The notes under the pieces are model-generated. The model was not told the DNA's origin, did not search any database, and was given only the letters and a program-made list of their open reading frames with translations. The position numbers were made by a program, and so were the translations under genes. Of a DNA stretch of 64,000 nt, positions 14,601 through 17,600 are shown in pieces (positions within the stretch are counted from its first letter, which is position 1; every line of letters begins with the position of its first letter). The DNA comes from Amyelois transitella (Eukaryota; Arthropoda; Insecta; Lepidoptera; Pyralidae), in NCBI RefSeq assembly GCF_032362555.1, contig NC_083505.1, forward strand, positions 2,967,501 to 3,031,500. The letters run 5' to 3'.

Positions 14601-17600
14601 AAAAAGTTATAGGAAACCCTTCCCTTCAAATATTTTTATTGCACTCATTGTTCAGCTCACATGTATATTCAGTCACAATCTTATTATTCAATCAAATTAT
14701 ATTTACAATAATAAAAAGGCAATTACACATAAGCCTTCTGAAAGTCGGAAAGACCAAGCAAACCATCTACAAACGCCATACAAAAACAAAAAAAAAAATA
14801 GAAATCTCACCGGAGCAACAGCGATAGTCTCCACATTGTTAACAGTAGTGGGACATCCGAACAGTCCGATATCAGCAGGGAACGGGGGCTTCAGGCGCGG
14901 CTTGCCCTGCTTCCCTTCAATAGACTCGATGAGGGCGGTCTCCTCTCCGCAAATGTATGCGCCTGCGCCGCGGTGCACGAACACGTCGAAGTCGTAGCCG
15001 GAACCGCACGCGTTCTTGCCTATGAGCCCGGCTTGGTATGCCTGAAATATGATTGTTATTTAGTTTACTCATGATTGGTGGTCTTATTAAAATTATAACA
15101 GTGTTTGTTAGTGTTGCGGTATTTTATTGCATAATTGGTCTTTTGCATTTATGTAAAGTAAAAGACTCACTTTGAGATGCAATATGCGCTTTTGAAATGA
15201 TTGCTTCATAGCATTTGCTTTGTTAGTGTTGTTACATTAACAAAGTAAAATTTTTTAATCAATAAACAATTAGTTATTCATTTTAAATAAAAATAAAGGC
15301 TTTACTTTTAGAAGCAGTCGTAAGGATATTAGTCAAGTAAAATGCGATTGAATGCATGCACAATGTTATAAAACATGGGAATTTAAAACAGGATTAATTT
15401 AGTGCCATTATATTTATAATTATATTAATTAATACTTTTAAACTGTTCCGTTACATGAGTTCGACCGTGGTCCGATAAGTTCGCGTTAATTCCAGTTTGC
15501 ATACATTAATACATAAGTTAATTGGTTTCTCATGATGTTTTTTCTTAGATAAGTTTACAGATATTCTTTCTAGAGTTTGAATCTATCTGAGTCATTACTC
15601 GTTACCATAATAACTACAATTAAAATAATTAATGATTCATCAAATGACATTAATACATTAATAATTGCGTGAAACTATGAACAAAGCTTATGTACAAAAC
15701 AAAGTTATTGTAATGACAAAAATTAAGCCAATTTTTTAATCAGCTTCAACTTGTTAGTCAATTCTCAGCAACAAGCATTCCCAAATATCTTGAAATAGAA
15801 AATAAAACATTTTTTTACATACCTCAGCTATAGCGACTTGTAAATTACTGGCTTCGTTGTAAAACTCGCCTCTGATGTAAATGTATGCAGCCTGAGCTCC
15901 CATAGCCCTTCCAGCGATCAGGCAGCCTTCAACCAACTTGTGAGGATCGTGTCTCATGATGTCGCGGTCCTACAATACAACGATACAACAATACATCTAA
16001 CTACTCAACTTCTACCACTCACCTCAGCAATAGCAACTTGCATATTACTGGCTTCGTTATAGAATTCTCCTCGTATATAAATATAGGCGGCCACTGCACC
16101 GATAGCTCTGCCTGCTATGAGGCAGCCTTCTATAAGCTTGTGCGGGTCGTGACGCATGATTTCACGGTCCTTTATTGTAATAAATCTGTTATTATTTGAG
16201 ATATATTACAGAAACAATTATAAAAAAAACATTACTGCTGAGTAAAAATCTTAAATTCCCTGATTTGAGTCTTATTCCTAGGATAAGTTATAGTTTTTCT
16301 GTAGTACTTTGATTGTGTTTGAGTCCGTTAAACCAAGGCAAGCATACAAACAGGTGAGCTATTAAATGTTACCCATATTTGATTATTCTACTTTTCTATG
16401 TTTAAAATGTTCTTAAAGTCAACTTTCTAGCCATATCAAAGGCAGTATAATGCAATATAAAGATGGTTTTTATATAATCTACCTTAATATAAATCTACCT
16501 TAATAAACCTTACCTTGCAAGTTCCAGGCTCTCCCTCATCAGCATTCACCACCAAGTACTTGGGTCGGCCGTCAGAGGGCTTGTTCATGAAAGACCACTT
16601 CATACCTGTAGGGAAACCAGCACCGCCGCGTCCCCGGAGACCTGATGTCTTCAACTCATCTGAAAGTTAATATTTGTATTGAAAAATTCAGGAAAATTAA
16701 GCAATTTATATAAATGTACTTACAATATTGCGATTCATCTTTTAGGCGATGGCTAGTCACTATCTTTGAATCTCAATTTAGTTATAAGGCCATCCTAACC
16801 TAAATGTGGTATGATTCTTTTTAATATTATAAGAAATAAAATTGTTTCTTTGAGTGGTAAATTTTATAAAAAAAATATAACTATTCAAAGGCTGTACAAA
16901 CAAAATTCAAATGAATGTAACATTGGAAATGTATATTTACGTAAATTAATTTGCACTTATTTCTAAAAAAAAGTTTATAGATAATCACTTGTGAACTTCA
17001 TAGGTACTTAAATACTTATGCACACATTAACAATCAAGGACTTTAATTAACTATTTTTGCTTCATCACTTAAGTAGCTGTTCAGGTTCATCCGCGTGGAA
17101 TAGTTATTTTGGGCATGATGCAAAAGCCCTCAAGGATAAATAATTTTCCCCGATTTTTTTCACATTCTTCATTATTTGGTCGCTCCTTATACTTGCAGTG
17201 TGCTGTTATAACCTAAAGCCTTCCTCGATAAATGGTCTATTCGACACAAAAATAATTTTTCAATTTGAACCTGTAGTTCCCAAGATTATTGTTTTTAAAC
17301 AAAAAAACTCTTCAGCTTATAATAATAATAATATTAGTATAGATGTATATACTAAATCTTTATTTTTTCTGACTAATAACAAGAAAATATTTCACATACA
17401 AAGGAAATCATTGTATCTATTAAGTTTTTGTTCATTCTTCATCTTTTACAATATTATCAAATACCTACATTATGTATGTGCAAACATCAGTAGTCTGTTT
17501 ATTGCTGTTTAAAAAAATCCATAAATTACTCACTGACTATCCAATCTGTGCCTTTTAACAGGATTTCCTTGGTCATGTACCAGTCGCCACGGCTGAGGGC

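Follow-up and report, generated by a model that had tools for sequence, protein, structure and literature searches.

The gene for the 51-kDa subunit of complex I, NDUFV1, carries two adjacent and closely similar exons, A and B, within the 64,000-nucleotide stretch of Amyelois transitella DNA that we analysed (the window, to which all positions refer unless a contig is named). Each exon is 147 bp long, in phase 0 and free of stop codons, and both are flanked by AG and GT. We consider it probable that the pair derives from an old tandem duplication within a single NDUFV1 gene and that its exons are spliced one or the other, which would yield two 480-residue forms of the protein, five residues apart. 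The locus shows what is expected of mutually exclusive exons: the two are adjacent and homologous, their length and phase are compatible, each has its own splice sites, and coding constraint is seen on both.

Structure and identity of the NDUFV1 gene

NDUFV1 is intact and lies on the minus strand (17937-11634), with a start codon, a stop codon and GT-AG introns throughout. It has 10 coding exons when both alternatives are included (Table 1), and its product is 480 residues long with either exon A or exon B. Reading through both gives 529 residues in frame, so that, as the initial annotation had argued, the reading frame does not force exclusion. The coordinates, length, phase and separate acceptors and donors that it had assigned to the two exons all hold, and the 53-nt intron between them and the junction bases 16514 and 15041 are correct.

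Table 1. Exons of NDUFV1 and the introns around the alternative pair
Feature	Position in window	Strand	Remarks
Exon 1	17880..17937	-	start codon
Exon 2	17534..17749	-	
Exon 3, common upstream exon	16514..16659	-	has GRGGAGFP and a 10-residue stretch
Intron preceding exon A	16170..16513	-	344 nt
Exon A, first alternative	16023..16169	-	49 residues; acceptor AATAAAG, donor GAG/GTGAGT
A/B intron	15970..16022	-	53 nt; without internal CTAAT-like branch site
Exon B, second alternative	15823..15969	-	49 residues; acceptor TATTGTAG, donor GAG/GTATGT
Intron following exon B	15042..15822	-	781 nt
Exon 5, common downstream exon	14811..15041	-	has a 12-residue and a 10-residue stretch
Exon 6	14213..14445	-	
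Exon 7	13564..13767	-	has a 10-residue stretch
Exon 8	12506..12573	-	
Exon 9	11634..11773	-	stop codon

The identity of the gene was established by comparison with solved complex I chains. A 175-aa stretch around the exon aligned over residues 2-175 (best E value 1.2e-112), and the query with one copy aligned in a single stretch to each of the 60 solved chains listed, the best 60 of 65. The 480-residue reading is a complete 51-kDa subunit of the NDUFV1/NuoF kind, with the FMN and four-cysteine cluster motifs, to which we ascribe FMN-binding and four-cysteine roles. The segment encoded by A or B lies between the exons that bear the FMN-binding motifs.

A search of the whole genome, 33 contigs with 327 Mb in total, gave 1 match for the downstream exon and 2 for the alternative exon, both of the latter in the window. 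No second NDUFV1 gene or retrocopy was found in this 327-Mb search with the downstream and alternative exons. The identification of the locus as NDUFV1 in the initial annotation is confirmed, and the gene is complete. We also considered Z-linkage as a hint of sex-specific use and dropped it, as the TIM-family (triosephosphate isomerase) gene, which we take to be a Z marker in Lepidoptera, is on contig C31 and NDUFV1 on C1.

Two sets of short repeats accompany donors of the gene. Right after the donor of exon 3 (16471-16505) stand two copies of a 16-bp unit with the donor-like AAGGTAGAT, and it is possible that these act as decoy donors before the alternative exons. At exon 7 the exon end and its donor are duplicated in tandem, with a repeat unit of 22 bp (13530-13574), and the intron holds two further copies some 230 bp farther on (13297-13344). 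If used, the next donor of this repeat at exon 7 would add 22 nt and shift the frame.

Elsewhere in the window, the gene adjoining NDUFV1 points away from it and includes a plus-strand exon of the metallo-beta-lactamase superfamily (19949-20347; PF00753, E 2.2e-16). A retroelement is represented by an open frame of 510 residues that includes a reverse transcriptase domain (24840-26369; PF00078, E 9.9e-36), and the open frame at 42887-43633 has PIF1 helicase and Pif1 2B domains, presumably as in Helitron transposons. At 53081-53411 a 39-bp unit is repeated in tandem 8.5 times, with 87% matches.

Divergence and coding constraint of the two exons

Exons A and B differ at 34 of 147 bases, with 6, 1 and 27 differences at codon positions 1, 2 and 3, respectively. 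At the level of codons, 24 changes are silent and five replace a residue (exon positions 3, 13, 23, 26 and 43), which leaves 44 of the 49 residues identical. The exact count therefore agrees with the five residues and approximately 34 bases reported before. Among comparable four-fold sites, 11 of 16 differ. Silent change between the exons is thus near-saturated, so the pair can be dated only as old. As for the dN/dS ratio that had been proposed for the two copies, dN was 0.077 (NG86) and dS gave no value.

The similarity between the copies covers 151 nt at 77% and ends about 2 nt beyond the exon edges. The G+C content of A and B is 48 and 50%, compared with 27-36% in three neighbouring introns. 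When the window was compared with itself (stop-free segments of at least 25 codons, 1583 in total; BLAST E 1e-3 or better), 43 protein matches joined segments of one strand less than 3 kb apart, and none of them was stronger than that of A with B. Many of the other same-strand matches are read as DNA repeats, since their similarity extends to several reading frames or to both strands.

To weigh the excess of silent change, we simulated divergence from exon B until 27 third-position differences had accumulated, with either one copy limited to silent changes or both copies free. The model was simple (equal mutation rate in both copies, transition weight 2) and was run 2000 times. With one copy free, 0 of 2000 runs ended with five or fewer residue changes (mean 33.7, minimum 19), and the free copy acquired a stop in 1607 of them. 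With both copies free the mean rose to 39.7, again with 0 of 2000 runs at five or fewer. As no simulated run reaches the observed conservation, it is very probable that A and B alike have encoded protein during most of the time since they arose, and both look to have been under long-term purifying selection. It is worth stressing that the silent excess is a sign of constraint on both copies and by itself no proof of two functions. The initial annotation had read it as selection on both protein versions; its claim of constraint is supported by the simulations, but two functions do not follow from the silent excess alone.

The five differing residues

We compared exons A and B with the letters of three solved chains, which we take to be those of fly, mouse and human. 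Exon A is identical to them at 45, 42 and 41 of 49 residues and exon B at 46, 44 and 42. At position 23 all three chains have Met, whereas A has Ile; at position 26 they have Gln or Arg, whereas A has Val. Asp at position 3 occurs in B alone. Position 43 is ambiguous, with Met in fly and Leu in mammals.

The residues of A were also counted in 80 bacterial NuoF sequences, a sample that was retrieved with A's own peptides (80 kept of at least 550 relatives, at least 590 matches, all with bacterial titles), and there E3 was present in 32, I13 in 53, I23 in 17, V26 in 11 and M43 in 0. At bacterial loci without an A-specific peptide, I23 was found in 2 of 19 and V26 in 0 of 19. The 80 loci yielded 76 complete ORFs, 68 of them with 410-450 residues; from the best 60 of these 68, 30 sequences were chosen for an alignment. 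In viral contigs, 0 of 6 matches to one pattern search for relatives were relatives, and another pattern search gave 1 relative among 12 matches, 59% identical. Judged by these comparisons, the five changes seem mild, and A's residues appear mostly tolerated across the family, yet they differ from the three animals at two sites.

Splice sites, intron length and RNA structure

The acceptor of exon A is the sole AAG among the nine of the gene (seven are CAG, and B has TAG), and with 8 pyrimidines in its last 20 bases it has the fewest of all nine. By sequence, this acceptor would be weak and the donor of the same exon consensus-like. An AACAG is located 16 nt upstream of exon A; its use as an acceptor would shift the frame and lead to a TGA at the eighth codon. 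A scan for the branch site of acceptor B revealed no CTAAT-like site in the 53-nt intron, where TTGAG at -36 was the best candidate, and the best match within 60 nt, CTGAG at -55, falls inside exon A. The scan is only suggestive, because no good match precedes exon 9 either, an exon that is presumably constitutive.

The other eight introns of NDUFV1 are 130-990 nt long. As a comparison set we used eight chaperonin genes and the TIM-family gene, excluding three single-hit contigs. Among their 49 gaps between successive exon matches, no raw value was below 75 nt and no estimate below 99 nt; the estimates are rough, and large gaps may span missed exons. None of these 57 values (8 introns in NDUFV1 and 49 gaps) is as small as that of the A/B intron, which, the 33 nt in the acyl carrier gene aside, is a length outlier in this genome.

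In flies, the minima given in the available part of PMC5762160 are approximately 35 nt from donor to branch site and 15 nt from branch site to acceptor; introns of 40-80 nt make up over half of the fly total, and splicing takes place even at 40-50 nt, at a slower rate. In human constructs, a donor-to-branch distance below 50 nt brought a critical risk and profound abnormalities (PMC11291888, in part), and 57 human clusters, or 9%, were flagged by a distance below 50 (PMC5740500, in part). The donor-to-branch distance in the A/B intron falls below that human threshold, as 53 nt is too small for 50 nt plus about 15 nt from branch site to acceptor. If the branch site were at -15, however, its distance from donor A would be 38 nt, which is inside the fly limit of about 35 nt.

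Since the intron is shorter than all 57 others, splicing of A to B is probably disfavoured. Exclusion is not proven by this, because introns of 40-50 nt do get spliced in flies and a donor-to-branch distance of 38 nt is possible. The earlier claim that the short intron may hinder the joining of A to B is thus borne out as far as the length is an outlier, but shortness alone does not prove exclusion.

RNA folding of the pair region was no better than that of shuffled sequences (z 0.31 over 441 nt), and only imperfect inverted repeats were present (14-18 nt, 78-87% complementary). No docking or selector pairing was detected in the region by folding against shuffles and by the inverted-repeat search, both applied to this single sequence.

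A probable second exon pair in the acyl carrier protein gene

As a control, we searched the same genome for mtacp1 (NDUFAB1), the gene of the complex I acyl carrier protein. Its mutually exclusive tandem exons have been described in two Drosophila species and Anopheles and are preserved in the honeybee; the pair is flanked by phase 1 introns, and alternative coding exons are attributed there to mtacp1 as well as to the ATP synthase epsilon gene (PMC551531, in part). The genome-wide search gave one copy each of two mtacp1 exons on contig C12. A further exon, absent genome-wide at E 0.1, was found just upstream when a 9-kb region was searched (E 0.007; 17 residues, 59% to human). With boundaries set by eye, the similar exons measure 111 and 114 nt and lie 33 nt apart, and an 86-nt intron follows them (C12:1163512-1163769).

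These exons are likely the counterpart of the published pair. The control is imperfect, because the first exon came up only in the 9-kb search, the boundaries were drawn by eye, and the pair reads as phase 0 here versus phase 1 in PMC551531. The 33-nt intron is below the published limits, so the two mtacp1 exons could hardly be joined. They are probably used alternatively.

Alternative explanations

Under the preferred reading, the joining of A to B would be blocked or slowed, with donor A too near the branch site for acceptor B. A pre-mRNA would then commit either to acceptor A, a weak AAG that is perhaps activator-dependent, and skip B, or to acceptor B and skip A. Double inclusion would produce 529 residues with a 49-residue repeat in the FMN-binding half, probably a non-functional protein. 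The most likely benefit would be that the NADH-oxidising subunit can be tuned under regulation, or supplied specifically by tissue or stage. A variant that we regard as possible, though clearly less favoured, keeps the either-or splicing and takes the two proteins to be equivalent, the pair being retained to control the amount of protein and not to make two types of it. The small number and mildness of the changes would agree with this, as would the occurrence of I23 and V26 in 17 and 11 of the 80 NuoF sequences, which were drawn with A's peptides (2 and 0 in the 19 without an A-specific peptide), and the frameshift to be expected if the AACAG upstream of exon A were used. Purifying selection cannot separate amount control from two functions; against equivalence, however, fly, mouse and human keep Met23 and Gln/Arg26, and A alone alters both.

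The remaining explanations do without a choice between two exons. That just one of them is used in practice and the other is a relic seems unlikely: the poor acceptor of exon A would suit a relic, but the conservation of the pair was reached in none of the 2000 simulations with one free copy, and A has retained a consensus-like donor, a stop-free frame and coding-like G+C. Even less likely is the routine inclusion of both exons in a 529-residue protein. The frame would be preserved and introns this short are spliced in flies (PMC5762160, in part), yet the repeat would lie between the two groups of FMN motifs, the solved chains listed (best 60 of 65) match the one-copy query in one stretch, and the intron is an outlier for the genome. 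An assembly artefact or a recent copy is hardly credible in view of the 23% divergence, the near-saturated silent sites and the lack of similarity outside the exons. Overall, the reading of the initial annotation stands as to the gene, the constraint, the outlier intron and the frame, with the qualification that the five changes are mild.

Discussion

Alpha-tropomyosin is the type case of sterically enforced mutually exclusive exons. In such systems, as at the NDUFV1 pair, there is little room between the donor of the first exon and the branch site of the second; the NDUFV1 case differs in that it is deduced from intron length, without a mapped branch site. NDUFV3 is an accessory subunit whose isoforms arise by exon inclusion or skipping and not from a tandem pair. 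In mammals it likewise provides two isoforms of a complex I subunit, but a different one from NDUFV1 (PMC5293009, in part). Tandem homologous exons are also shared with the competing RNA structures of the Dscam type (PMC6071210, in part), whereas no docking or selector pairing was detected at the NDUFV1 pair.

The 51-kDa gene of Drosophila, CG9140 (ND-51), has four exons and two duplicate genes, CG11423 and CG8102, and duplicate genes are described as strikingly different in expression (PMC551531, in part). A single fly, too, can thus have several versions of the 51-kDa subunit. In flies, however, the versions come from separate genes, whereas here two exons share one gene and we find no other.

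The closest parallel is mtacp1, which like NDUFV1 is a nuclear gene of complex I in which two homologous coding exons stand in tandem. It differs in encoding an accessory subunit and in having more diverged exons, with phase 1 introns around them as published, while the NDUFV1 pair is in phase 0 and in a core catalytic subunit. The notability claimed for the pair therefore holds for the core catalytic subunit, but tandem exons in complex I are not unprecedented, the mtacp1 pair having been published (PMC551531, in part). The kind is already known; it is the location in a core catalytic subunit that makes the pair worth following.

As regards novelty, alternative NDUFV1 exons appeared in no title or abstract opening among the open PMC literature matches listed, and the string 'nduf' is absent from the main texts of PMC5740500 and PMC9741552. 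The Kassiopeia resource covers twelve Drosophila species, Arabidopsis, C. elegans and human, with no Lepidoptera named in the available part of its description (PMC3923563). An annotated pair of NDUFV1 isoforms may already exist, as novelty was judged from the open PMC literature.

A more far-reaching idea, which we think rather doubtful, is that exon choice creates two functionally distinct forms of the core subunit that do the job of the flies' separate ND-51 duplicates (germline- or stage-specific complex I) and that, together with the mtacp1 pair, they make up a coordinated, splice-switched complex I.

The 51-kDa subunit binds the FMN that accepts electrons from NADH, is a main site of superoxide production and is usually regarded as a single protein per animal. 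Our comparison of the two exons suggests that this animal probably makes two forms of it. If the exon choice is conserved, it would offer a clean genetic handle for asking whether tissues or stages differ in how the entry chemistry of complex I is tuned, the two forms being only five residues apart. Alongside mtacp1, NDUFV1 may be the second tandem pair in complex I, which would make coordinated splicing of the complex testable.
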